A stretch of 25,849 nucleotides of DNA from positions 1 to 25,849 of IMG/VR virus record IMGVR_UViG_3300037191_002105, one strand, 5' to 3'. The position numbers and the translations under genes were made by a program. Below the pieces are notes generated by a model. The model worked only from the letters and a program-made list of their open reading frames with translations. It was not told the DNA's origin and did no database searches. Positions 4,711-25,644 of the stretch are shown piece by piece; the first letter of the stretch is position 1, and every line of letters begins with the position of its first letter. Source of the stretch: a virus.

Positions 4711-4939
4711 AATATTCTTCTTTTGTTATTTCAATATAATTTGTTACCATATTATTTTTAGTATTAGTACCAGAGCTATGTCTCATTTCTGCTTCCTCTA
4801 AATTAATATGTCCTTTAAATCTAAATCTAGACCTGCCAAGAGTTTTACCTGAGCTAAAAAAGACATCATAGTACTTAAACTCCTGTACTTCCAAATCCTC
4901 CTGTTCCTCTTTTTGTTTCTCTTGTTGTTCCTGATACAT
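4703..4939 (-). CDS. Small hypothetical protein with Gln/Glu-rich N-terminus, 78 aa
   Basis: Unknown. The likely folded part begins near residue 22 (FKYYDVFFSSGKTLGRSRFRF...), followed by a short helix NLEEAEMRH and a strand NYIEITKEEYYA. The first about 21 residues (MYQEQQEKQKEEQEDLEVQE) are encoded in another frame over the last 65 bases of the dUTPase gene. A TTG inside that overlap could be an alternative start that removes most of the Gln/Glu stretch. Confidence 0.6.
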   Translation of the reverse strand: MYQEQQEKQKEEQEDLEVQEFKYYDVFFSSGKTLGRSRFRFKGHINLEEAEMRHSSGTNTKNNMVTNYIEITKEEYYA

Positions 4940-5429
4940 AATTAATTTCTATTTTTAAAGATTTTTTAAATAAGACTTGGGCAATCCTTTGCCCTCTTAC
5001 TATTTTTACAGGTGTAGAAGATGTATTTATTAAGCTAACCATATACTCACCCAAATAGTCATTGTCCATGGTTCCTACTCCGTTGGCAACAATTAACCCT
5101 GAGTTAAGTGGTAGAGAACTTCTACTTCTTATCTCTGCTTCATACCCTTTAGGTAGGTTTATTTTTATTCCTGTACCTATTAGTATTCTATTCTGAGGAT
5201 TGACCATAAATGGTGTACCTTCTTTAAAATACTCATTAAATGTATCTACTTTATCAATACCTACTAAAGCCCCATTACTCTTTAAAACCTTTTTTATAGA
5301 AAGAGCTTTTATATCATACCCTGATGCTCTTTGTGTTCCTTTGTAAAGGAGAGGACCTAAGTCCTTTCCTTTATATAATAATTCTATCTCAATTTTAGGT
5401 CTACTAAACCAATTCAATAAGTTCTTCAC
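4875..5429 (-). CDS. dut: dUTP diphosphatase (trimeric dUTPase)
   Basis: Hydrolyses dUTP to dUMP and pyrophosphate, keeping uracil out of DNA and feeding ThyX. All five motifs of the trimeric family are present: ASGYDIKAL (35-43), RSRSSL (101-106), GVGTMDNDYLGE (117-128, with the catalytic Asp in MD), RGQRIAQ (145-151) and the C-terminal P-loop-like RGTGGFGSTG (174-183). At 184 aa it is longer than the usual about 150 aa, because of an insert between motifs 1 and 2. The start is GTG, overlapping the upstream TGA as GTGA; the frame has a stop shortly upstream and no earlier ATG. Its last 65 bases also encode the start of the next gene. Confidence 0.95.
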   Translation of the reverse strand: MKNLLNWFSRPKIEIELLYKGKDLGPLLYKGTQRASGYDIKALSIKKVLKSNGALVGIDKVDTFNEYFKEGTPFMVNPQNRILIGTGIKINLPKGYEAEIRSRSSLPLNSGLIVANGVGTMDNDYLGEYMVSLINTSSTPVKIVRGQRIAQVLFKKSLKIEINYVSGTTRETKRGTGGFGSTGV

Positions 5430-5816: not shown

Positions 5817-6254
5817 TCATTTCAGTCTAATAGTTATTATAGTTTTAATTTTGTTTGTATCAATAGTTGTGATATCAATTTCTTGACCTTTAAAACTACA
5901 GCTAAACAAGTTTTTTTCTGACAAGTAAATATTAGCTATCGGAAATTCAATTTTTGTAAAAGATTTAGTCACTTGATTCCAAAAGTCTCTTTTTTCATCA
6001 TAATCACCATCTAATTTATCTATAACATCATGTAATGTTTCCTTGAAGTTAGAAATAATACTACCTTCTTCGTCAGTATTATACATATCTAAAGTAGTAT
6101 AGAACTCAAATAGTCCCCAAGAAGTAGTTTTTATTAAGACTTCAGCTTCAATTGACTTTTGTAAAAGGAATCCTCCAATTTTAACACACGCAACTTTATT
6201 ATTTAGAATACTTATTAGGTACTCCACTAATTCACTTTTTAATGTCTTTGTCAT
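5817..6254 (-). CDS. Hypothetical protein, 145 aa
   Basis: Unknown. A soluble alpha/beta-looking protein with no recognised motif. The ATG overlaps the TGA stop of the helicase gene by four bases (ATGA), so it is translationally coupled to it and may be an accessory factor. That link is positional only. Confidence 0.62.
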   Translation of the reverse strand: MTKTLKSELVEYLISILNNKVACVKIGGFLLQKSIEAEVLIKTTSWGLFEFYTTLDMYNTDEEGSIISNFKETLHDVIDKLDGDYDEKRDFWNQVTKSFTKIEFPIANIYLSEKNLFSCSFKGQEIDITTIDTNKIKTIITIRLK

Positions 6255-7747
6255 TGTTCAAATTTTATGTTTAAATAAGAGAAATTTTCACTACTCCTTG
6301 ATACAGCTACAAAAAATAAATTCTTTTCTTGAATCCTGCTCTTTTCATTCCTAGCCATCTTAGAAGGCATTAATTTTCTTTTGTTTATCAAGTATACATT
6401 AGGGTTTTCTAACCCTTTACTTTTATGAATAGTACTTAAAACTATACTATCTTCAGAAGCTACAAAGAAGATTGTAGCTTTAGCAAAGTAATGTGTTAAT
6501 TTTGTTCCATAAGGAAAAACAAAATTACTACTAAGAGAAGATACTATATCTATAGCTTCTTTAAGCATGAAAAACCTAATCCTGGTTGTTTCACTTTTTA
6601 AATTTGCACTTAATTCTAATAACTCTTTTCTAGAGTTAGTCAGTGCTGTATCTATATCTAAGTACAGATATTCTCTCATTACTTTCTTAGCACTGTTAAA
6701 AGTATCCTTGCCTAGTATGTAACATTTCTTTCCTTCAGCAGCTAATAAGAACAAAGTTGAAACTAAAGGAGCTGTATTTCTACAAAGTATCAAAGATTTT
6801 TTAGGGATGCTGCTCAAATCCCTTTCTGTCTTAATAGACATACTCCCTCCTTCACTTTTAAAAGGAATTACTCCTTTATATATTTTGTTTAACTCATCAG
6901 TAATTATAGGTGGACACCTGTAACTTATATCTAAAGGTAATTCCACTACATTAGCATAAGATTTAAACATTTCAAAAGATTCTGCACTACTTCCTGCAAA
7001 AGCATTTATTGCTTGTCTATCATCTCCAACAGCAATGAATTTAACATGTTGGTCATCATTACAAATGATTTCAAACAACTTGTGTTGAAGTACTGAGAAA
7101 TCTTGACACTCATCTGCAAAAACATGAGTATAACCTTCAGTACATTTTAAATCAAAATAAACTGGAAAATACAGCATATCTGTAAAATCCACTAGTTTAT
7201 AACTTCTGTTATTGAATCCTTCTCTTATTTCTAGAAAAGTAATCCAATAGCTTTGTAGTAAAGTATCTTCAGTGATTTCCCAAACTCCTAATTCAATAGA
7301 AGCTTCCTTAATTTCACTAAAGTCATCAGTTAAAAATATCCTAGAGAATTGATCTAAAAATTTTAAAGAAAACTTTAATACGTTTTCCTCCTTTCTGGAC
7401 AACAGTTTAATATCTGATGTATTATACAGGTCTTTATATAATATATAAAACTTATTTTTATCTACTTTAAAAGTAAATTTTTTTGCCACCATTTTTAATC
7501 CAAAAGTGTGTAAAGTAGAAGCTTCCACACTACTTGTTAAGACAAAACTACTTAGTTTGTCTTTTAATTCCTTCACAATCTTGTTATTAAAAGCTAACAT
7601 TATCCCTTTGTCAAAAATATTTAAATCTTTGGCTAAAGATAACATAGTCGTGCTTTTTCCTGTTCCTGGACCAGCTTTTACTAATACAGAGTTGCTTGTA
7701 TCAAAGAATTCTTCTCTGATTTTTTTCTGTCTATAATTATCTTTCAT
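6251..7747 (-). CDS. Superfamily 1 UvrD/PcrA-like DNA helicase
   Basis: An ATP-dependent DNA helicase of the UvrD/Rep/PcrA group, likely acting in replication restart or recombination of phage DNA. Visible motifs, in order: Walker A AGPGTGKST (25-33), TLHTFG (78-83, motif Ic-like), DECQD (212-216, motif II), GDDRQAI (241-247, motif III), SYRCP (275-279, motif IV), STIHKSKGLE (438-447, motif V) and FFVAVSRS (478-485, motif VI). At 498 aa it is much shorter than cellular UvrD (about 720 aa), so the 1B/2B subdomains are reduced. It begins one base after the upstream stop. A YqaJ-type nuclease lies about 0.9 kb upstream in the same operon, so the pair could work like a small helicase-nuclease team; that is inference. 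Confidence 0.92.
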   Translation of the reverse strand: MKDNYRQKKIREEFFDTSNSVLVKAGPGTGKSTTMLSLAKDLNIFDKGIMLAFNNKIVKELKDKLSSFVLTSSVEASTLHTFGLKMVAKKFTFKVDKNKFYILYKDLYNTSDIKLLSRKEENVLKFSLKFLDQFSRIFLTDDFSEIKEASIELGVWEITEDTLLQSYWITFLEIREGFNNRSYKLVDFTDMLYFPVYFDLKCTEGYTHVFADECQDFSVLQHKLFEIICNDDQHVKFIAVGDDRQAINAFAGSSAESFEMFKSYANVVELPLDISYRCPPIITDELNKIYKGVIPFKSEGGSMSIKTERDLSSIPKKSLILCRNTAPLVSTLFLLAAEGKKCYILGKDTFNSAKKVMREYLYLDIDTALTNSRKELLELSANLKSETTRIRFFMLKEAIDIVSSLSSNFVFPYGTKLTHYFAKATIFFVASEDSIVLSTIHKSKGLENPNVYLINKRKLMPSKMARNEKSRIQEKNLFFVAVSRSSENFSYLNIKFEQ

Positions 7748-8021: not shown

Positions 8022-8603
8022 TTATCTTTCTTCAAATAGCGTGTATAGATACTTACTAGTATCCATGTTAAATAAGCTTTCTTCCTTAAAAGTAAAAGGA
8101 AGTAATAGTTCTAAATTAGAAGACTTAATTTCTTCTGTTGACAAGAAAGTCCCTGTCTCTCTTAAAAGAGACTTTTGAAACCTGTTTACTGCTTTTTCAT
8201 CTCTTTCAACTATCTTATGTATGTGAGAAATATCCCTATGATATTGGTGTTCAATATAGGTAGGATTACTTCTCAATTCTGACAACTTCCCTCTAATTAC
8301 AGAGGAAAGCAAGTCAGGATATGGAAAAGATAAAGCAACTATTTTATCACTTCCTGAATCATATATTTCTAGAACATCAGGACAAGCATCTAATTTCACA
8401 AAAATGCTACTTGAGTTCACTGATTTAGGACATTTTAAAAGTATTGCTTTTCCAAAGTATTCTTCTCTCAACTCATCATGACAATAAAACTGAGTGGTGA
8501 GCAAGTTACTTCTCCTAATCAATCTTTTTGTCTCTGTGTCATACAAAAGACTTATCCAGACTGCTAAATAAGCAGCAGTTTTGTTTAAAATAAGGTTATT
8601 CAT
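8022..8603 (-). CDS. Hypothetical protein between exonuclease and helicase, 193 aa
   Basis: Unknown. The N-terminus (NKTAAYLAVWISLLYD) is mildly hydrophobic but not a convincing membrane helix. The middle is beta-rich (GKAILLKCPK...SIFVKLD...IVALSFPYP) and the C-terminal third is charged and helical. It overlaps the nuclease gene by eight bases. Its position suggests a role in recombination, but no motif supports a specific one. Confidence 0.62.
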   Translation of the reverse strand: MNNLILNKTAAYLAVWISLLYDTETKRLIRRSNLLTTQFYCHDELREEYFGKAILLKCPKSVNSSSIFVKLDACPDVLEIYDSGSDKIVALSFPYPDLLSSVIRGKLSELRSNPTYIEHQYHRDISHIHKIVERDEKAVNRFQKSLLRETGTFLSTEEIKSSNLELLLPFTFKEESLFNMDTSKYLYTLFEER

Positions 8604-9504
8604 AGATAAGTTTTTCTAATGTTAATGTGTTGTAGTACATTGCTAGCATGTAAACTCTTTTTAACATTTGTTTTATTGACTTATCTACTTCTTCTACTGG
8701 TATAGTAAAACTTTTTAATCTCTGGTCCAAAGGTATTTCTAAGAGACTACTATTAAAGTCTCTAACTTTTTGTTTATTTTCATCGTTAAAGTTTGCATAC
8801 ACTTCAAAAGGTGTAGGCATTAAACAGAAATCTAAACTCAAGTTTTTCGCACTCCATAAAAAGGAATACGTAATTAGTTGCCAATAGTAATTTATACTTA
8901 TACCCTTGTGATTAGTATAAGTTCTAAAATCTTGTGGACATTTAATGTCTCTTACAAGATTTTCATATTCTGAATAAATATCACACTCTCCTGTAATAGC
9001 ATGTTTAAACTCAGGAGCACTTATAGCTTTCGGATTATACCTAACTATAGTTTTAGATTTTAAATCATAAATAGCTCTAAGATTATTTTTTGCATAATCT
9101 TTTAACTTAAGATCGTTAACAAGTTCTATAGCTTCATCTTCCATTAAATTACCTTTTTGAATTTGATGAGGCATAAAACCTTCCATTGTTAAGTCTAATC
9201 CTTTTTGCTCTATAAACAGAGTGTGAGCATAATTCTTTGCTCCTTCTGGTAGTTCATCAGGAGTATTGATTTTGTCTAGTATCTTAATATAACTATCATA
9301 CTCTTTTTTACACCCTTTTGGGTAAGAAGGAGATACATAATTCTTTTGTAAGAATTCAGACATCTCTTCGTCATTTACTTCTATATTCTTAGCTTCAAGT
9401 TTGTCTCTTAGTAAACTTTCTGCTTTATCTAATTCTACCTTGAGACTGTCGTAGTCTATAAGATAACCCATTATCTTGCTCATGCTGCTAGCTCTTATTA
9501 ACAT
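8596..9504 (-). CDS. YqaJ/lambda-type PD-(D/E)XK exonuclease
   Basis: Probably a phage recombination exonuclease that resects double-stranded DNA. It opens IRASSMSKIMG (residues 3-13), the usual RaSs start of YqaJ-like proteins. KGNLMEDEAIELV (117-129) supplies the early acidic helix. GECD (172-175) with DIK (186-188) forms the metal-binding D...DxK core, and NYYWQLITYSFLW (205-217) gives the conserved Gln helix. At 302 aa it is within the usual size range. Residues 15-100 are an inserted helical region. No ssDNA-annealing partner is plainly recognised nearby, though the 15447-16394 gene is a candidate. Confidence 0.82.
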   Translation of the reverse strand: MLIRASSMSKIMGYLIDYDSLKVELDKAESLLRDKLEAKNIEVNDEEMSEFLQKNYVSPSYPKGCKKEYDSYIKILDKINTPDELPEGAKNYAHTLFIEQKGLDLTMEGFMPHQIQKGNLMEDEAIELVNDLKLKDYAKNNLRAIYDLKSKTIVRYNPKAISAPEFKHAITGECDIYSEYENLVRDIKCPQDFRTYTNHKGISINYYWQLITYSFLWSAKNLSLDFCLMPTPFEVYANFNDENKQKVRDFNSSLLEIPLDQRLKSFTIPVEEVDKSIKQMLKRVYMLAMYYNTLTLEKLIYE

Positions 9505-9515
9505 ATTTTAATTTT

Positions 9516-10079
9516 TTAAATATTATTTGAATTTATTTTATGACTCTCAAGCATTATCATGAAATTTTCATAGTCTTCTAATTCAATTTTTTTTTCTATG
9601 AATCTTTTAGTAACTTTAAAATCACTAGAAATTATTACTTGAATATCCTTCCTTTCTGTTTTGTACTCTCCTATCTTTAACAATGATTTTTCAAGAATCA
9701 CTAATTTTGTAGATAATACAACTAATAATGTATTTTCTATAATTTTTATACAACCTAGTATTTCTTTAGTAGGATGGTAATATAGTAACCCATTATCAAA
9801 GAGTATATATAAACTTTTCTCTCTTACATTATTTATTGTTTGAAGTTTATTCCACCTGACAATAACAGTATCAAATCCATAATAATGAGATTCTATAACC
9901 TTTTCTATAAAGGTTTTGTAACCTCCACAGAAAACGACTCCGAGACCAAGTTTGTAATTAATTGGAGCTAATTTAAGTAATGGACTGGCTTCTACATTAT
10001 AGTAAAAGCCAGAATTATAACTTCTTGTATTCCAATACCTAGGTGTGTGAAAGTTTTTATTTTCCGTAAGTTGTAACAT
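9516..10079 (-). CDS. Hypothetical protein overlapping the E1-like gene, 187 aa
   Basis: Function unknown. It starts inside the last 23 bases of the E1-like gene, so it is probably translated with it and is a candidate extra component or substrate of the Ub-like cassette. The sequence is beta-rich, with regular hydrophobic strands (KLGLGVVFCGGY, GFDTVIVRWNKL, KSLYILFDNGLLYY, NTLLVVLSTKLVILE), compatible with a small beta-sandwich or propeller fragment. The C-terminus is charged and helical. No catalytic motif or membrane segment was found. Confidence 0.65.
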   Translation of the reverse strand: MLQLTENKNFHTPRYWNTRSYNSGFYYNVEASPLLKLAPINYKLGLGVVFCGGYKTFIEKVIESHYYGFDTVIVRWNKLQTINNVREKSLYILFDNGLLYYHPTKEILGCIKIIENTLLVVLSTKLVILEKSLLKIGEYKTERKDIQVIISSDFKVTKRFIEKKIELEDYENFMIMLESHKINSNNI

Positions 10080-10851
10080 CTTGATTTATCTCTTTGGTTA
10101 ATAAATTACAATCCTCTCTATAGTAAAAAGGAACTGGAAAAAAGTCTACATTAGTTCTCACTGAATCTTTTTCACCTTTATTCAAAGCAATATTAGTTAA
10201 ATAATTAGTGTAAATAGTAACCAACTTACTAGCCAAAGCACTAGCTACATGAGTAGTCTGCTTAAAACTACAAGACAACCCTGTAGCTTGTTCATCCGTA
10301 AACAAACAATTTTCTAAATAGAAATCAATTTCTGATTCTTTATCATTTCTTAGGCAAAATATCTCAAATCCTGTTGGACTTAACCTGCTTTCAAAATAGA
10401 TTTTATCTACAGATACTCTTGAGTTATTATTAGTAACTCCCTCTAGTTTTCGTTTAAAGTCTTCTGCTAATTTCCTTCTTGAAGTCATATTGTCTACACA
10501 ACAAAACAATGACGAGTTACTAAATCTTTGAAACATCGGACTAAGAGTTTGTCTGACATTTGAATATATCTTAGTTCCCTGTTCAGGGCTTACCAGCATT
10601 TCTATTATTTGTTTTGTTGCAAATACTTTTGAGTCTCCTACTTGTTGAGAAGAAAATAATTGACCTCCGATATTATGGTTTTCTACCATATCATCATCGT
10701 ATAGAGATAAGTTCTTAGCACCTGCTCTCGCAAGTTGAAAACTTAAGTGAGAACCTATTCCACCTAATCCAATGATTGAGTGACTAAAATATTCCATTTC
10801 TTTAAGCCAATCAGCTCCTTTAAATCTGTCATTGTACGGTAATACTTCCAT
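10057..10851 (-). CDS. ThiF/E1-like ubiquitin-activating enzyme
   Basis: Predicted to adenylate the C-terminus of a ubiquitin-like protein and pass it to an E2. The Rossmann ATP-binding loop IIGLGGIGS is at 26-34, acidic YDDDMVE at 51-57, HNIGGQ at 59-64, VGDSK at 71-75 and CVDNMTSR at 118-125, in the order seen in ThiF/MoeB/E1. Cys194 in GLSCSFKQTTHVAS is the best candidate for the catalytic thiol. The Arg normally in N-x-x-R-Q is Gly63, and there is no CxxC zinc pair. At 264 aa it is a minimal single-domain E1. It begins directly after the JAB stop (TAAATG). Biosynthetic ThiF/MoeB is unlikely given the E2-like and JAB neighbours. Confidence 0.87.
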   Translation of the reverse strand: MEVLPYNDRFKGADWLKEMEYFSHSIIGLGGIGSHLSFQLARAGAKNLSLYDDDMVENHNIGGQLFSSQQVGDSKVFATKQIIEMLVSPEQGTKIYSNVRQTLSPMFQRFSNSSLFCCVDNMTSRRKLAEDFKRKLEGVTNNNSRVSVDKIYFESRLSPTGFEIFCLRNDKESEIDFYLENCLFTDEQATGLSCSFKQTTHVASALASKLVTIYTNYLTNIALNKGEKDSVRTNVDFFPVPFYYREDCNLLTKEINQDVTTYGK

Positions 10852-11691
10852 TTAATATTCTTTTATACTGTTAAGAATTTGTTTTAATTTTTCAGGAATT
10901 ATAAAATTATGTTCTACTTCTTCTATTTCTTCTTGTAAAGTTTCCCAGTCTTCTAGTGGAATTTCAATAACTCCTCTATCATCTTGAAATTGAGGCAAAT
11001 ATCTTTCTACTCTTTTATCAGGAGAATAACTTCTTCCAGACATAAAGTCTTCATAAACTGGAATTTTAGTGACAACTTTTTTTTCATTGTCTTCAAGTAT
11101 TTTTAGTAACTTATTAAATTCTGAGTCACTTTCAGTCACTGGTAGTTTAATTGTACAATCATATTTCTTACAAGAAAATACTTCTTTTTTAGAAATACTG
11201 TTGTGTACATACTTTCCTCTACTTTTTATGTATGTGGAATCACTACTAATTATTTTAGTAGCAACGCCAATTTTAGCAACTATATCTCCAGCATAATTTA
11301 CTATAATTGAAAGGTAGAAACTGTAATGTTGTGAATTCTCGTTCAATTCACTTATATCTGTAGCACTAAAATATGCTTCCATACTATGATGAGTATGCAT
11401 CAAGCCTGTACTAAAGTCTGCTTGATTTTCATCTCTCATTATATACTCTGTGAATACAGGATTTGTCCCTATAGATAGGGATGTAAACACACTTGACCCT
11501 CTGTCCATAGGAATTATGTCTTTAACATAAATCTCTTTGGGTAAGCCATCATCTGTTGTTTCCTTACTTTGTGTAAAAACTGTCACTGAAGACCACTCAG
11601 TATTAAGTTTAGTGAATTTATTCATTAAACTTATTTTATGTAGTACTTCCTCAGTAATAAAAACTACTGGTTTGTTATCTTCTACTTTCAT
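10852..11691 (-). CDS. JAB/JAMM metalloprotease (deubiquitinase-like)
   Basis: Predicted zinc isopeptidase that removes or matures a ubiquitin-like protein. The JAMM motif is intact: Glu32 (NTEWSS), His99 and His101 (LMHTHH), then Ser109 and Asp112 (FSATD), giving H-x-H-x7-S-x-x-D with correct spacing. The JAB domain covers about residues 10-150. The remaining about 130 residues form a C-terminal extension with basic and acidic segments and no recognised fold. ATG overlaps the stop of the E2-like gene (ATGA). It resembles the JAB partner in bacterial Ub-like operons more than phage tail JAB proteins, as no tail genes are nearby. Confidence 0.88.
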   Translation of the reverse strand: MKVEDNKPVVFITEEVLHKISLMNKFTKLNTEWSSVTVFTQSKETTDDGLPKEIYVKDIIPMDRGSSVFTSLSIGTNPVFTEYIMRDENQADFSTGLMHTHHSMEAYFSATDISELNENSQHYSFYLSIIVNYAGDIVAKIGVATKIISSDSTYIKSRGKYVHNSISKKEVFSCKKYDCTIKLPVTESDSEFNKLLKILEDNEKKVVTKIPVYEDFMSGRSYSPDKRVERYLPQFQDDRGVIEIPLEDWETLQEEIEEVEHNFIIPEKLKQILNSIKEY

Positions 11692-12929
11692 AATATATAC
11701 TTTTTTAATAAAGTCTTAGCATCATCATTAAGACTTAATTCACTTTTATCAAAATGTTCTACGGTGCTATCTTCGTTAAAATAAACTTCAAACTTAACTT
11801 CTTGACCATTAAATATAAAATGGTCTAAATCAGGTATTGATTCTTCATAAAGATTTAATTGTAACTCAAACATTGCTTTTTCTCTACTAAGAGAGAGAAG
11901 AGTTTTTAAATTATTTTCCCCAATTTTTAAATTAGATTCTAAAAAACCCCCTAACCAGGAGCCAGAGTATTCTTCTCTGTTGTTAATAAAATGCTCAGTT
12001 AAGTCTTTGTAAAAAGTATATATTATAACAAGCTCTCCATAATAGAATTTAAAATACTTAGTAGAAAAATCAAAAGTTGTTTTTTTAATTTCTCCAACTA
12101 TCTGTCTTAAATTATCATGAATATCTGTCACTTCTAATATACTAGTTTTAGTAAGATTCTCACAAGAAACTAAAGAGGGTATTTTTTTATAACAGTCATC
12201 ACTGTTATATTCTTTTATATAGTTAATGAGTCTAAGCATAAAGAAGTCATACTCCTCTTGGTTTACTGCTATATACTTTAAGTTATCAGATAACCTTGAA
12301 TCCCCCAAGCATAAACTGTTTTTATAAATGTCGTGATTTAATTTTTTTCCAAAAAGTTCTGAAGATGTTACATTTGGTTGCAACATATTAAGACCAATCT
12401 TATTTGAGCAATGAGGGTGATTAAACCCATTTATTAATCCTAATACATCATATTTTCCGAAGAATAATGACATATTATAACTATCAATGTGCAACCCTTC
12501 TCTTTGGAACCCTACTTGAAAATAGAAGTAAGGCTCCTTATAAGCCCATACTTTTTTGTTATTTTTTCCAATTAAATCAAAATCTTTCAATTTAATTACA
12601 AAATGAAATTGACATCTATAATGAAGATGTTTACTGTCTTTAAAATAAGGATACACATCCCAACTTAATCCATGTCTTTCACAATAATTTTTAGTGTGAG
12701 TAATTATTTTAGAAAATTCTTTAAAAAAAGAATTAGTAATTGTCGTAGCTTTTTTTCTGTCTAAAGAGTTTATAACCTCTTTATAAACAGGTACAAGATT
12801 AAGCCAAAAAGGGTCTCCTTCAACCTTGGCATCTACACCTTCATTCCACCAATGCTCTCTAGCTTTAGTAAATTGGTCATATAAAAAAAAGGGATCTCGA
12901 AAGACCCCTTTAGTTTGTAATTCATCCAT
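11688..12929 (-). CDS. E2-like ubiquitin-conjugating protein with C-terminal extension, 413 aa
   Basis: Proposed E2-like enzyme that takes the Ub-like protein from the E1 onto a cysteine. Residues 90-165 contain successive beta strands (YRCQFHFVIKL, YFYFQVGFQ, YNMSLFFG). These are followed by FNHPHC (169-174) and, about 30 residues later, SLCLGD (205-210). The HP(N/H)...CL(G/D) arrangement is the E2 signature, making Cys207 the likely active site; Cys174 is an alternative. About 90 N-terminal and 200 C-terminal residues, mostly helical, lie outside the E2-like core, much more than in a minimal E2 (about 150 aa). The identification rests on this motif plus the E1 and JAB neighbours, so it is less certain than theirs. 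Confidence 0.65.
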   Translation of the reverse strand: MDELQTKGVFRDPFFLYDQFTKAREHWWNEGVDAKVEGDPFWLNLVPVYKEVINSLDRKKATTITNSFFKEFSKIITHTKNYCERHGLSWDVYPYFKDSKHLHYRCQFHFVIKLKDFDLIGKNNKKVWAYKEPYFYFQVGFQREGLHIDSYNMSLFFGKYDVLGLINGFNHPHCSNKIGLNMLQPNVTSSELFGKKLNHDIYKNSLCLGDSRLSDNLKYIAVNQEEYDFFMLRLINYIKEYNSDDCYKKIPSLVSCENLTKTSILEVTDIHDNLRQIVGEIKKTTFDFSTKYFKFYYGELVIIYTFYKDLTEHFINNREEYSGSWLGGFLESNLKIGENNLKTLLSLSREKAMFELQLNLYEESIPDLDHFIFNGQEVKFEVYFNEDSTVEHFDKSELSLNDDAKTLLKKYIL

Positions 12930-12977
12930 AATTAGTTAAATTTAATACTCAAAAACTTTATCATCAAAATCATACTA

Positions 12978-13619
12978 TTAATCACGATATGCCTCTTCAT
13001 CATCATTAAAATCATCATCTTCTTCTTCCGCATCATAATAATCCTCATCATAACCTTCATCATCTTCGTCTTCTATGTCTTCTTGACACTCATCTTCTTG
13101 ATGTTGTAATGCTTTTTGAAACTCTTGTTCCTCTTTTGCTGCCCACAATTTGTGAAAGAGACTTTCCACTTCTTCCATTGTAACAACATTAACCTGAACA
13201 GGTAAAATTTCTTCTTTTTTATTTTCCATACACTCTGAGAAAGCAACATTCATTTCTTCAGTACTTAACTGAGTCCAATTTTTGTTTAATTTTTTTGCTT
13301 TCGCAATAAAACATTCTTTTACAATGTGGAATCTTTTTGCTTTTGCTCTTAACTCGACAAAAGTAAGAGAAGCACCTGCTTTGTTTCTTTTAGGAGACAA
13401 CACTAAGAGACCTTTGCCACTTTTAGAAGACAGTCTTTGGCTGTCTGAAGACAATATTTTCTGACTTAAGCTGTCAGAAAAAGACAACCCTTCATATTCA
13501 ATACCTGCTTCCTCTAAAGCAGTTTTTAACTCTAATCTAGTGGGATTGTCAACCACTTTAATGTTTGGTCTACTTGACAATCCTGTTGAAAAAACTATTA
13601 CTGTTATTAAATTTTCCAT
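12978..13619 (-). CDS. Ubiquitin-like beta-grasp protein with acidic tail, 213 aa
   Basis: Probable ubiquitin-like modifier or its precursor. Residues 4-76 have the order of a beta-grasp fold: strand LITVIVFS, turn, strand NIKVVDN, helix TRLELKTALEEAGI, then strands near LSFSDS, QKIL and GLLVLSP. It then runs into a basic, flexible KRNKAG (77-82). A helical domain (about 86-170) and a very acidic tail of about 40 residues (176-213, Asp/Glu/Tyr-rich) follow. The C-terminus does not end in Gly, so processing would be needed if it is conjugated through the beta-grasp domain. The ATG abuts the upstream UDG-like stop (TAAATG). The fold is judged by eye from strand/helix order. Confidence 0.55.
   Translation of the reverse strand: MENLITVIVFSTGLSSRPNIKVVDNPTRLELKTALEEAGIEYEGLSFSDSLSQKILSSDSQRLSSKSGKGLLVLSPKRNKAGASLTFVELRAKAKRFHIVKECFIAKAKKLNKNWTQLSTEEMNVAFSECMENKKEEILPVQVNVVTMEEVESLFHKLWAAKEEQEFQKALQHQEDECQEDIEDEDDEGYDEDYYDAEEEDDDFNDDEEAYRD
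13457..13481. repeat. Intragenic hairpin with 9-bp perfect stem
   Basis: TTTTCTGAC and GTCAGAAAA are separated by a 7-base loop, inside the Ub-like gene. It is an example of the frequent intragenic inverted repeats in this window. It has no U-tract in the transcribed direction, so it is not read as a terminator. Confidence 0.4.
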
Positions 13620-14360
13620 TTAAAAGTTTACTTTAGATAATCTACTCTTTTCGAGTATTTTATTTGTTATTAAAAAATGATTTTTATTATAAAAACCACC
13701 ATTTCCCCAATATTCTGACATTGGAGATTCTGAATGTAATATATAATTTTTTCCTTTATAGATAGGAATATTTTTAATATTCTCTAAATTATAAGGATTT
13801 ACATCAAATTTATTAGCTATTTGAGGTATAAAACTTTTTGCTCCTCCCCATAACAACCACACAATATTTTGACCTTCTTGTGAAGATATATGCCTTATTA
13901 TTTGATTTGTAAATTGTTTCCAATAACTTAAATGACTTTCATCATTTCCTCTCTCCGATGTAAGAGAAGAATTTAATAGAAAGACTCCTTGTTTTTGCCA
14001 AGTATTAATTCCCTGATAATCAGGGAAATTATTCTTTAGCTCTTTTTCAAGAATTATTAATTCTTGTGGAGTTAAGTCGGACTTTAAATTATTACCTACT
14101 TTTTCATCAAGAGATTCCCAATTATTTTGGAAGGCTAATCCTGTAGCCATTTTATAATTAGGATAAGGAGATTTACCAACAATAACTAATTTAATATCTT
14201 TTGGATGTGTTTCAAACACCTTAAAAATATTGTTTTTGTTAGGTTCATAAGCTATTTTAGGTAATACACTTTTAAAAAAGTATTTAAGTTCTTTATAATC
14301 CATGTACTTTTTTAGGTAAGGTTTCCAATACCTTATAGCTTCTTCCTTTGAATATCTCAT
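13620..14360 (-). CDS. Uracil-DNA glycosylase-like protein without the usual catalytic Asp
   Basis: Belongs to the UDG family 1-like fold. VIVGKSPYPNY (59-69) stands where GQDPYHG is expected. MATGLAFQN (71-79), INTWQKQGVFLLNSSLT (118-134), NIVWLLWGG (165-173) and ILHSESPMSEYWGNGGFYNKNHF (207-229; compare HPSPLS...GFFG..HF) follow in the right order. Ser64 replaces the catalytic Asp and Pro67 the His of the motif. The GVFLLN Asn (130) is retained. It may be a weak or altered glycosylase, or a DNA-binding or processivity factor, as vaccinia D4 is in part. The start overlaps the primase gene by 68 bases; this ATG is kept because the N-terminal YWKPYLKKY helix fits the family. Confidence 0.8.
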   Translation of the reverse strand: MRYSKEEAIRYWKPYLKKYMDYKELKYFFKSVLPKIAYEPNKNNIFKVFETHPKDIKLVIVGKSPYPNYKMATGLAFQNNWESLDEKVGNNLKSDLTPQELIILEKELKNNFPDYQGINTWQKQGVFLLNSSLTSERGNDESHLSYWKQFTNQIIRHISSQEGQNIVWLLWGGAKSFIPQIANKFDVNPYNLENIKNIPIYKGKNYILHSESPMSEYWGNGGFYNKNHFLITNKILEKSRLSKVNF

Positions 14361-15432
14361 AAGTCAGTTTTCCTTGATTAAAAATTTGATTAAAAGTCTT
14401 TGGTTTTTCTTTTATCATATCTGAAGAGTCTTTGATACCTTGTTTTAAAAAGTTCCTGTTTAAACATATAGCAATTATTTTAAATCCTGCTTTACTTATA
14501 GTATCTCTAACATGAATAGCAGCTTTAATTCCTGCTTTATCATTGTCAAATAATATGATAAAATTTCTATGTTTAAATTCTTTTAACAACTTTAAATCAG
14601 GAATCATTCCTTCATTTTGAAACCAAATAACTTGAAATCCTGCATTTTTAAGTACTCTGAAATCCTTATAAGATTTCGTAATAATTACATCAGATTCAGA
14701 GTCAGAGTCATCTAACCCCCACAATCCCCCAATACAATCTTCATCTACATTACCAAAGAACCTAAGAAACTTAGAGAAGGGTTGATAACCTTTCATTCTA
14801 CTTCCCCAAGAATCATCATTGATAATATAAGAACACCAATGGCTGCAAATAAATTTTCTCCATTCAGAAGAACCTTTACTCTTGACTCCCCAAGCATCAA
14901 TAGGAATTATATTATCAGATTCTAACTGAGATTTAGTAATTCCATAAGAAGACCAATACTTCTTATCATACTTGTTCCAAGTTCTCGTCCAATAATATAT
15001 TAAAGTTTTCTTATTTCCTTTAGATTTATTAGATGTCTTTATAACTTCTAACTTAGTGAAACCTAAGTCTAAGCCTTCTAACTTACCTACATTAATGAGC
15101 TCTTGAATCTTAGATAAACACAAACCTAAATCAATTCCTTTTAAAATCATTAAGCTTTGAAAACAATCTACATTCCAAATACCAATACCACTAACTTTTG
15201 AACCTATTGCAGCTCCATCATATAAACATAACAGTCCTTCCTTGTTTCTAATAAACTTGCACCCAGGACTATTATCTTTTCTATAAGGACTGGTAATAAT
15301 ATCACTATCATTAGGTTCAAAACCTAATGAAATATTCCAAACTTTTTCTTCACTTATTTGAGATAATATTATCTCTTTAGACAAGTGAAGCCCTGGACTA
15401 ACCAAGGCTTCAAATACATTTTGGAATTCCAT
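14293..15432 (-). CDS. DnaG-like primase with TOPRIM domain
   Basis: Makes RNA primers for phage DNA replication. SPYRKDNSPGCKFIRN (48-63), followed by LLCLYDG, matches the N-terminal primase fold seen in phage DnaG-like proteins, without a full zinc ribbon. The TOPRIM core is near 248-310: DVIITKSYKD (248-257), where the usual Glu is Lys253, and ILFDNDKAG (293-301) with the metal-binding D-x-D. No helicase domain is fused; a separate DnaB-like ATPase is encoded at 17703-18866. At 379 aa it is compact. Its 3' end overlaps the UDG-like gene. Confidence 0.84.
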   Translation of the reverse strand: MEFQNVFEALVSPGLHLSKEIILSQISEEKVWNISLGFEPNDSDIITSPYRKDNSPGCKFIRNKEGLLCLYDGAAIGSKVSGIGIWNVDCFQSLMILKGIDLGLCLSKIQELINVGKLEGLDLGFTKLEVIKTSNKSKGNKKTLIYYWTRTWNKYDKKYWSSYGITKSQLESDNIIPIDAWGVKSKGSSEWRKFICSHWCSYIINDDSWGSRMKGYQPFSKFLRFFGNVDEDCIGGLWGLDDSDSESDVIITKSYKDFRVLKNAGFQVIWFQNEGMIPDLKLLKEFKHRNFIILFDNDKAGIKAAIHVRDTISKAGFKIIAICLNRNFLKQGIKDSSDMIKEKPKTFNQIFNQGKLTYEIFKGRSYKVLETLPKKVHGL

Positions 15433-20331: not shown

Positions 20332-22212
20332 TTAGTGACAATCAGCATAGTTAAAGCCAATATCCACACTTACAGAAAAATTAACATTCATTTTTAATCT
20401 TTTATTAACTCTATCCATAGCTTGTTGGAATAGAGGTTTATTTTTTTCTAAATCCTCACTAGGAAAGTAAGTTACAAATTCATCATGATATTGAAGTGTG
20501 AATTTCATATCAGATATGTTTTTGACTTCTATTAACCAATTATCAAATACCCAAACACCACTACCCTGATTTAATGTAGAAAATAAATCTTTCTTATTAG
20601 CTACATAATACCAAAACTTAGATAGTGGGTTATAAACCCACGTTTGATTATCTACTTCTTTAGTTTTAAGGTTCTTGACTACTTCTTTAATAGCCCAATT
20701 CCTTTCCCAATAGATGTCAAATAGTAATTTACCCTCTGCTTCACTAATCTTAGCTGTTTCAGCTATTTTCTTATAACCTGCATTGTAGGTAGCACTAAAG
20801 TTTGTGGTTTTAGCTGTGTGTCTAACTTTTTTGAGTCTTTTAAACTCTTTTAAATCATCTTGAGATGGTTTATTGTAGGGTTTATCACACCATTTATAAA
20901 ACTCTTCTTCTTCAATAGTCATCAATCCTGCTAAAACCCCAATATCAATATGTGGGTCAAAACCTGGTTTGTTCATTTCTTCAACATATTCAGGGTCAAA
21001 GAAATATAACCAATGTCTTTTAGTTCCATCTTCTAAAGATGAAACATCGCTTCCTATCATAGTAAATCCTTGAGGAGCTGATAATACCCCTCTAATCTCT
21101 TCTCCATAAGGTGAACCTACTTTAGGTAGGTTTTGAATATTAGCATGTCTTAGTCTTAAAGTATTAGTAAAACCATGAGCTGAACTATGGATAGTTCTTT
21201 TCTTTTGATTTTCTAAAAAACCTACTAACACTCCTTGTCTATGCCTAAGCATATAAAGACTTTCAATATTCTTCAAGACAGGGTGTTCTTCAAATAAATC
21301 TTTAACACTTGGACACAATCCTTGTCCAAATGGTAAGCTAATTTGTTCTACTTTCTCTCCTTTAACATTATCTTTAAATGTAATTGGTTCCCAACCAAAA
21401 CTAAATAACCATTCTTTAATTTGGCTACTTGACAATGGATTCGGTTCTTCTCTAATAATCTCTGTATCTTCAGGTAATCCCTTGTCTTTCAACAAGTTAT
21501 ACCATCTTTCTCCATTTACGGAGAAATTACCATTCTTTTTGTGAGTTACTTTTGGTTTCTCTTTAAGAACTTTACCTAAAGAATTAGGCATAGACTTAGA
21601 CAACAAATCAACTTTGTCGTAAATCTTAGTTCTTATCTCGTTAATTGATTTCTTAGACCATTTAATATCTAAGAGAAAAGGGTTCTCTTCTTGTTCTTTA
21701 AGACATTCAAACTTGAATGCCAAGTATTGAGTTAATCTTAATATTCTACTCTCCATTAAGTATAATGATGTAAGATAATTTCTTTGCTCAAACCAAACTA
21801 AGATATTTAGTTCAACATCTCTCCTACATCTTTTCAAATAATCCTCTGAAGATAAATTCTCCCAATCCTCGATAGCTACTTTAGGGAGCTTGTATTCAAC
21901 TCCATAAGATTCTAAGCCATGCTTAGGTCTTTGAGGTTGAAGATACCAACTCAAAGATAAAGTGTCTATCGGTTTACTTGTAATTTTATTACCACTAATT
22001 ATTTCTAATGCAGGTATGTCATATCTTATAATATTATGACCTATAATATAATCAGCACTATTTAAAATGCTAATCATTTCAGAAATATTAGTAGTAGTCC
22101 CAAAAGATACAGATGGACCACTGATTTTAGCATACACCATACAGTGTATCTTGCTAAAATCTTCTAGTAATCCATCTGATTCTATGTCAAATACTAGATA
22201 TTTCATCTTCAT
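20332..22212 (-). CDS. DNA polymerase I family (family A) with 3'-5' exonuclease
   Basis: The phage replicative DNA polymerase. Exonuclease domain: Exo I FDIES (8-12, Asp9/Glu11), Exo II GHNIIRYDIPA (58-68) and Exo III RCRRDVELN (128-136, Asp132; the usual Tyr four residues before is Arg). Polymerase domain: QNLPK (360-364), motif A GSDVSSLED (387-395, Asp389), GFDPHIDIG (417-425), motif B RHTAKTTNFSATY (464-476, with Phe472 at the nucleotide-selecting position) and motif C YHDE (575-578). At 626 aa it is shorter than T7 gp5 (704 aa) and has no 5'-3' exonuclease domain. ATG overlaps the stop of the HNH gene; a second ATG lies two codons later. Confidence 0.94.
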   Translation of the reverse strand: MKMKYLVFDIESDGLLEDFSKIHCMVYAKISGPSVSFGTTTNISEMISILNSADYIIGHNIIRYDIPALEIISGNKITSKPIDTLSLSWYLQPQRPKHGLESYGVEYKLPKVAIEDWENLSSEDYLKRCRRDVELNILVWFEQRNYLTSLYLMESRILRLTQYLAFKFECLKEQEENPFLLDIKWSKKSINEIRTKIYDKVDLLSKSMPNSLGKVLKEKPKVTHKKNGNFSVNGERWYNLLKDKGLPEDTEIIREEPNPLSSSQIKEWLFSFGWEPITFKDNVKGEKVEQISLPFGQGLCPSVKDLFEEHPVLKNIESLYMLRHRQGVLVGFLENQKKRTIHSSAHGFTNTLRLRHANIQNLPKVGSPYGEEIRGVLSAPQGFTMIGSDVSSLEDGTKRHWLYFFDPEYVEEMNKPGFDPHIDIGVLAGLMTIEEEEFYKWCDKPYNKPSQDDLKEFKRLKKVRHTAKTTNFSATYNAGYKKIAETAKISEAEGKLLFDIYWERNWAIKEVVKNLKTKEVDNQTWVYNPLSKFWYYVANKKDLFSTLNQGSGVWVFDNWLIEVKNISDMKFTLQYHDEFVTYFPSEDLEKNKPLFQQAMDRVNKRLKMNVNFSVSVDIGFNYADCH

Positions 22213-25569: not shown

Positions 25570-25570
25570 G

Positions 25571-25644
25571 TGCTCCCTACAGGGCTCGAACCTGTGACCC
25601 CCTAATTATGAGTCAGGTGCTCTAACCAACTGAGCTAAAGGAGC
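25571..25644 (-). tRNA. tRNA with anticodon CAU (Met, or Ile2 if lysidine-modified)
   Basis: The minus strand folds as a cloverleaf of 74 nt: acceptor GCTCCTT/AGGGAGC, D stem GCTC/GAGC, anticodon stem CCTGA/TTAGG with loop CTCATAA (anticodon CAT), variable GGGTC and T arm ACAGG-TTCGAGC-CCTGT, discriminator A. The 3' CCA is not encoded. The arms resemble elongator tRNA-Met; identity as tRNA-Ile2, where C34 is modified to lysidine, cannot be excluded. Confidence 0.93.

Follow-up and report, generated by a model that had tools for sequence, protein, structure and literature searches.

A putative ubiquitin-like conjugation cassette within the replication operons of crAss-like and related Bacteroidota phages

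Why would a bacterial virus carry, among its DNA replication genes, all the parts of a ubiquitin-like protein conjugation system? The question is raised by a 25,849-base stretch of DNA, the whole of IMG/VR virus record IMGVR_UViG_3300037191_002105 (hereafter the window), a fragment of a crAss-like phage in which four consecutive genes encode a ubiquitin-like modifier (Ubl), an E2-like protein, a JAB/JAMM metalloprotease and an E1/ThiF-like enzyme. Prokaryotic Ubl conjugation has so far been studied mainly in the form of host defence or plasmid cassettes. The original prediction, made from the letters of the window, placed a full Ubl cassette inside a phage replication operon, and this is borne out by the fold of the modifier, the catalytic residues, a shared gene order at 75 loci, inheritance of all parts or none, and joint inheritance with the primase and exonuclease genes. 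Fold, catalytic residues, gene order and all-or-none co-inheritance were all computed, and on this basis we consider it fairly likely that the cassette is a dedicated, reversible pathway for Ubl conjugation, which crAss-like phages and related phages of Bacteroidota inherit as a single module within their replication operon. All four open reading frames (ORFs) lie where they had been predicted, as listed below; coordinates and residue numbers are those of the window, pLDDT is the predicted local distance difference test score, and a family HMM is a hidden Markov model built without the window.

10057-13619, minus strand: four-gene cassette Ubl-E2-JAB-E1, ORFs confirmed
12978..13619, minus strand: Ubl-tail protein, 213 amino acids (aa), a putative pro-ubiquitin-like modifier with a helical tail (AlphaFold 2 mean pLDDT 81; family HMM E=1e-13)
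13374..13619, minus strand: Ubl domain, residues 1-82, C-terminal PKRNKAG, with the Gly82 codon at 13374-13376
12981..13373, minus strand: C-terminal tail, residues 83-213, helical with an acidic end; sister phages have its homologue as a gene of its own
11688..12929, minus strand: E2-like protein, 413 aa, with His171-Pro-His173 at 12411-12419 and Cys207 at 12309-12311 (hhalign score 40.8)
10852..11691, minus strand: JAB/JAMM metalloprotease, 279 aa, with Glu32, HTH 99-101, Ser109 and Asp112 (family HMM 6e-40)
10057..10851, minus strand: E1/ThiF-like enzyme, 264 aa, with GLGGIGS, D52/D54, N60, Q64, K75 and D120, and a catalytic-type Cys194 at 10270-10272 (Pfam ThiF 1.9e-15)

The four cassette proteins

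A beta-grasp fold in the 213-aa protein had been named beforehand as one of two points on which the idea of a Ubl cassette could fail, and AlphaFold, given a 50-sequence alignment with the window protein first, returned a ubiquitin fold with the beta-grasp order of elements, residues 1-79 scoring mostly above 90. Foldseek matched this model in the PDB to the Dsk2 UBL (E=3.8e-4) and also to ubiquitin, SUMO, NEDD8, FAT10 and archaeal ubiquitin, and VIA-align gave Z scores of 8-10.7 against ubiquitin-fold domains. At the sequence level, Pfam, NCBIfam and PHROG gave no useful match (no Pfam domain), and the Ubl profile, run as an HMM against PDB sequences, found no relevant one either. The protein had been described as a beta-grasp protein as a whole; the ubiquitin fold covers residues 1-82, but a tail of 131 aa is attached to it.

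The junction between modifier and tail is marked by Gly82, the sole invariant column among 50 Ubls that share about 20% identity with the window, which lies six residues past the last strand, usually within the context KK-I/V-K/R-S-G. Ubls of six loci (L057, L067, L068, L075, L076 and L085) have no tail and end in KSGK, KSGR, KSGNKN or KSGNEKKH, that is, 1-6 residues past the conserved Gly, while in cr106_1 (L004:2692-3895) an HNH endonuclease gene, placed two residues past the conserved SG, separates a 92-aa Ubl ending in KSGKF from a 130-aa tail ORF. The invariant Gly, the tail-less Ubls and the split cr106 gene are as expected for a precursor that is cut after Gly. The tail itself is found in other phages as a stand-alone protein of 84-125 aa encoded directly after the primase (e.g., L166:10965-11339 and L149:10942-11193), with the motif SRKELYxxIKxLGLQEEV...YGKNYT and no Pfam domain, whereas in cassette phages the Ubl gene carries it as its C-terminal portion, often with a terminal SEIDxMF-like motif. 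The start of the stand-alone form appears a few residues past the Gly of the fused form, e.g., KIKSG-AMSRAEAY against MSRKELY, and Met occurs among the first six post-Gly residues in 16 of the 50 proteins, the figure for six-residue windows in the rest of the tail being 9.7%.

The intact JAMM metalloprotease was upheld by its complete catalytic set and by the family HMM, the Prok-JAB match (E=7e-4) being under the curated cut-off of Pfam; the same set is complete in 87-88 family copies, and the remainder are gaps in truncated pieces. Among Flavobacterium phages, Fpv1 (NC_031914) holds at 67335-67583 a second, weak match (E=3e-3) to residues 1-96 of the window JAB, and in several FpV phages such a second match is found some 2 kb upstream of ThiF, possibly a JAB-N-like domain at another place in the operon. 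The E1/ThiF-like enzyme likewise stands, by its Pfam match, a family HMM score of 7e-61, its Rossmann adenylation site and Cys194. The ATP-site residues D52, D54, N60, Q64, K75 and D120 are present in 92 of 92 homologues and Cys194 in 91 of them, and in most copies the Arg of the NxxRQ motif is replaced by Gly. The E1 of crAss001 (L003:7542-8693) and of many Steigviridae carries an N-terminal extension of about 150 residues that is absent from the window enzyme.

The window copy of the E2-like protein has no Pfam, NCBIfam or ordinary HMM match, gives nothing useful in PHROG and is missed by HMMs built without it, and an HMM search of PDB sequences with the E2 profile found no relevant match. 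Aligned to the E2 family by hhalign, it scores 40.8 over residues 135-413 with the HxH and CxG motifs in register, against a best of 21.0 among controls (28 further proteins of the window, 20 shuffled sequences and one reversed). The predicted HPH...CLG signature was located as His171-Pro-His173, Cys207 and Gly209; in the family, His173, Cys207 and Gly209 occur in 57 of 57 members and His171 in 54. A model of the crAss001 homologue (pLDDT 85; predicted template modelling score, pTM, 0.77) shows a long helix, a beta meander, an HSH/Cys loop and two helices, which is the element order of UBC proteins with a helical insertion. Topology, motif and weak structural matches to UBC and RWD domains make the 413-aa protein a probable E2.

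Catalytic histidine codons of JAB and E2 are also sites of insertion. At or beside the catalytic HxH, genes are split in seven loci, six times in JAB (L016, L026, L038, L049, L068 and L081) and once in E2 (L027), and four of these match group I introns in Rfam (L016, L026 and L049 in JAB, L027 in E2), while the JAB insertions of L038, L068 and L081 have no Rfam match. Codons that are unable to change are often where mobile introns lodge, and the position of these introns at catalytic HxH codons fits active enzymes.

Gene order, inheritance and exchange

Searched by tblastn, the window ThiF led to Flavobacterium phages FpV and to crAss-like Steigviridae (crAss001, DAC17 and cr-phages), where Ubl, E2, JAB, ThiF and one further gene follow in identical order and adjoin primase/UDG genes. 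An alignment of ThiF was needed to go further, scans of viral contigs with the single window ThiF or E2 having given no matches, and with it IMG/VR yielded 80 loci; together with annotated phages and the window these make 93 loci, the window entering twice through a locus that is part of it. With iterative HMMs, ThiF was detected in 93, E2 in 88, JAB in 90 and Ubl in 85. A search of related phages for the four-gene order had been proposed as a check on the cassette, and the order Ubl-E2-JAB-ThiF proved intact in 75 of the 93, which excludes chance. The other 18 are almost all contig ends or insertion-split genes, besides the window, whose E2 the HMM missed, and an unrelated jumbo phage. A primase lies upstream of the cassette in 84 loci and an exonuclease downstream of ThiF in about 80.

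The cassette is thus found in cultured phages (crAss001, DAC15/17 and FpV), where its genes are annotated as thiamine biosynthesis, metalloprotease or hypothetical; the label of thiamine biosynthesis protein is the one given to Steigviridae ThiF genes in public records. We found no earlier description in Crassvirales literature combined with ubiquitin, ThiF or JAB, in a search that left subscription papers mostly outside, and the cassette is real and widespread and, to the extent covered by that search, undescribed. Against plasmids, the window ThiF had no matches at E 1e-3 and the crAss001 ThiF remote matches only; a genome-contig search for a cellular source gave three small contigs from metagenome-assembled genomes and nothing else, so that no cellular source came to light.

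How long has this set travelled with the replication genes? Distances of all four cassette proteins correlate with those of the primase and exonuclease at r 0.73-0.82 (0/500 permutations), the correlation between primase and exonuclease being 0.89. Taking the primase as a neutral anchor, we obtained 42 loci with at least 6.5 kb downstream, 18 of which carry Ubl, E2, JAB and E1 together and 24 none of them, with no partial cases; the scan used Steigviridae-like primases, so that its frequencies hold for that neighbourhood and not for crAss-like phages as a whole, and the loci are related by descent, so the counts are not independent. In 15 of the 24 cassette-less loci the tail is kept as a gene of its own directly after the primase. 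A reading of 15 anchored loci as having the Ubl only was rejected, as the HMM coordinates cover the tail alone. The slot of the cassette is filled in 17 of the 24 by a GHKL ATPase of about 700 aa (HATPase_c_3, 4e-12) and a partner gene of 330-400 aa (L166:11432-14740, L117:11367-14656 and 15 further loci), and in the anchored loci this GHKL module and the Ubl set are mutually exclusive. On the primase tree, the Ubl label must change at least three times, which argues that the Ubl domain and its enzymes are gained or lost as a unit.

A comparable arrangement was met in a second lineage, the Xanthomonas jumbo phage PhiXhv-12 (PV764601, L011:3760-7636), where genes for a Ubl-like protein, an E2-like protein and ThiF lie between those for DNA ligase and DNA topoisomerase. 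The candidate Ubl (140 aa) ends in ASGG and the candidate E2 (892 aa) carries IHPH...SLCLG and Cys-rich ends, both being assigned by motif and position alone; the Cys-rich ends might be a treble-clef or RING-like E3. Prok-JAB was not found in the 227 kb of PhiXhv-12, whose modifier already ends in GG and needs no processing protease, and this fits the processing role proposed here for JAB. The ThiF match of PhiXhv-12 is shared by Erwinia phage Ep032.

Proposed pathway, its target and its rivals

From these data we infer a pathway in which JAB cleavage, E1 and E2 thioesters, isopeptide transfer and reversal by JAB would follow one another. The Ubl would be made as a precursor, usually fused to the helical tail protein, and JAB would cut behind the invariant Gly, at KSG|A in relatives and at KAG82|A in the window, to give free Ubl and a tail close to its stand-alone form. 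In eukaryotic ubiquitin-ribosomal protein fusions the modifier is likewise N-terminal and is released by a protease at Gly, and we liken the precursor cleavage to this release, although the phage partner is an uncharacterised replication-operon protein. E1 would then adenylate the Gly and hold the Ubl as a thioester on Cys194, E2 would accept it on Cys207 and pass it to an amine of a target protein, and JAB would additionally remove it from that target. The original prediction had suggested as possible roles a PCNA-like tagging of replication proteins or the inactivation of host defence proteins. The likeliest target may be some phage protein of replication or recombination, or else the tail protein, and tagging would then regulate phage DNA replication. 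What favours a phage replication target, which we propose tentatively, is that the cassette keeps a fixed place in the replication operon, that the Ubl is fused to a protein which sister operons retain, and that the jumbo phage offers a parallel.

Several observations weigh against this pathway. Foldseek of the crAss001 E2 model against the PDB returned nothing below E=1, and the best VIA-align scores, obtained with preselected chains and for the crAss001 homologue rather than the window protein, are weak and include Z 4.7 (138 residues), Z 3.8 and Z 3.1, these chains being the UEV protein FTS/AKTIP, the RWD proteins Ctf19/Mcm21 and the E2 UFC1, respectively. The UBC fold that the original prediction expected of the 413-aa protein thus came through only weakly, by its UBC-like topology and the UEV match at Z 4.7. 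The window E2 is highly divergent, with an HPH-Cys spacing of 33 residues, about twice the usual, and the cassette has no E3. Finally, the module is missing from 24 of the 42 related crAss-like loci and is therefore not essential to the group.

The chief rival to a replication target is counter-defence, in which the Ubl would be put on host defence or stress proteins or on competing phages and the place in the operon would reflect timing only. Bil, CBASS Cap2/Cap3 (CBASS, cyclic oligonucleotide-based anti-phage signalling system) and possibly Bub apply such chemistry to conflicts between phage and host (PMC11354881, PMC10097602, PMC13373217), and the module is accessory-like, being dispensable and swapped for the GHKL ATPase module. 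Long co-inheritance with primase and exonuclease at a fixed place among replication genes speaks for the replication target instead, as does the fusion of the Ubl to a protein kept in sister replication operons, and we regard counter-defence as unlikely. Could the tail be the real product, with the Ubl as a cleavable or regulatory domain through which E1 and JAB set the dose or activity of the tail, and little conjugation in trans? The tail is indeed kept in 15 loci that have no Ubl, cr106 encodes it by an ORF of its own, and the junction falls at the invariant Gly; yet the six loci with tail-less Ubls carry E2, JAB and E1 all the same, and E1 and E2 would be superfluous, which leaves this explanation improbable. 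That the E2-like protein is no E2, and that ThiF, Ubl and JAB only process or thiolate the Ubl as a sulfur carrier (as with ThiS, MoaD or CysO/Mec), agrees with the best NCBIfam match of the E1 (ThiS adenylyltransferase ThiF, 2e-16), the weak evidence for the E2 fold and a Ubl terminus of SG or AG rather than GG, but is highly improbable given an E2 that keeps HxH and Cys-x-Gly in 54-57 of 57 homologues, has the topology of helix, meander, HxH/Cys loop and two helices with structural matches that include UEV, RWD and UFC1, and is never lost separately, and given annotated neighbours among which there is no sulfurtransferase or thiamine/cysteine pathway gene.

A further step would be to see in the cassette a core regulator of phage DNA replication, a viral Ubl cascade in which the modifier is born fused, released by a JAMM protease and used for reversible tagging of the replisome, and which is interchangeable with the GHKL module; this we put forward as possible but doubtful. 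The complete set is long-inherited equipment of the replication operon of crAss-like phages, which are among the most abundant human gut viruses, and it suggests that abundant gut viruses tag proteins during replication. Cultured and tractable carriers make control of bacterial-virus DNA replication by a protein tag testable, and they offer a minimal E1-E2-JAB-Ubl set that can be compared across natural variants, whether tailed, tail-less, split or absent.

Known systems and the surrounding genes

Does the cassette belong to a system already described? The Bil operon BilABCD is a bacterial, ISG15-like anti-phage system in which a JAMM protease trims the modifier to expose Gly (PMC11354881). 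It has the same four activities, and the order Ubl-E2-JAB-E1 would also be the same if the Bil genes follow the letters A-B-C-D. BilA, however, has two Ubl domains where the phage cassette has one Ubl and a tail; BilD, a large pseudodimeric E1, has a Cys domain whereas the phage E1 is a single-domain core of 230-264 aa; BilB has a CEHH motif with histidines after the Cys whereas the phage E2 has HxH before it; and Bil is encoded by hosts against phages whereas this cassette is encoded by phages. With the PADLOC models of Bil, crAss001 E1 matched BilD weakly, at 2.6e-5, and Ubl, E2 and JAB had no match at E<=0.1. Bil membership was therefore rejected: the four-gene content is shared, but the Bil models match neither Ubl, E2 nor JAB.

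PRTRC (ParB-related, ThiF-related cassette) operons of plasmids, or type 6d, have separate genes for Ubl (C), E2 (B), JAB (A) and ThiF in the order of the phage cassette, and their replicon-maintenance neighbourhood (ParB) is comparable to its setting. Profile comparison linked the E1s (E=5e-16) and the JAB motif (1e-5 over 18 columns) and nothing else, hhalign with PRTRC C and B from four PRTRC loci (E 0.35 and 0.25) detecting no similarity for Ubl and E2, and type 6d E2s are without the upstream His of the phage E2. None of the PRTRC genes ParB, E and F is annotated in the relatives, and the window has no gene between Ubl and E2, the F position. PRTRC membership was thus rejected on dissimilar Ubl and E2 and on the absence of ParB, E and F, although the gene order is shared.

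Type II CBASS combines conjugation by E1/E2 with deconjugation by JAB in Cap2/Cap3 (PMC10097602, PMC11153139), as would the phage cassette, and its Cap2 is an E1-E2 fusion that conjugates the CD-NTase, a cGAS/DncV-like nucleotidyltransferase. The phage has separate E1, E2 and Ubl genes instead and neither the nucleotidyltransferase nor the effector of CBASS, no CD-NTase being among the window proteins scanned; membership was rejected on the separate E1 and E2 and the missing CD-NTase. Closer to phages, TAPI/TAPK of lambda and T1 have a Ubl domain and a C-terminal Gly followed by a further domain, where JAB is predicted to cut (PMC1779556). A phage-encoded Ubl-Gly-domain protein with JAB is thus common to both, but TAPI/TAPK are tail-assembly genes and come with no E1 or E2.

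Transcription of the operon runs on the minus strand through primase, UDG, Ubl, E2, JAB, ThiF, an uncharacterised gene, exonuclease and SF1 helicase, with further replication genes farther out:

20332-22212: DNA polymerase A, farther out from the cassette
14293..15432, minus strand: Toprim primase, upstream of the cassette (phrog_12622 1.7e-42, Toprim_2 3e-5)
13620..14360, minus strand: UDG-superfamily protein, adjoining the cassette (Pfam UDG 1.2e-6, phrog_12143 2.7e-45)
9516..10079, minus strand: uncharacterised gene after ThiF, a position also occupied in annotated relatives
8596..9504, minus strand: exonuclease, downstream of the cassette (phrog_5715 5.2e-30)
6251..7747, minus strand: SF1 (UvrD/Dda-like) helicase (Pfam UvrD-helicase 1.5e-21, phrog_1967 4.6e-79)
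4875-5429: dUTPase, farther out from the cassette

Pfam and PHROG matches agree with the predicted UDG-like and primase genes upstream and SF1 helicase downstream. The supposed YqaJ exonuclease is an exonuclease by PHROG only, with no YqaJ match in Pfam, and the supposed translational coupling, although tight at the junctions UDG/Ubl, E2/JAB (4-nt overlap), JAB/ThiF and ThiF/next gene, does not extend to Ubl and E2, which are 48 nt apart. The position after ThiF holds a gene in 11 of 11 aligned phages, and the similarity of the window gene 9516-10079 to the post-ThiF genes of relatives is not significant. Close to the contig end, the window also has a tRNA-Met (CAT) gene at 25570-25644 on the minus strand.

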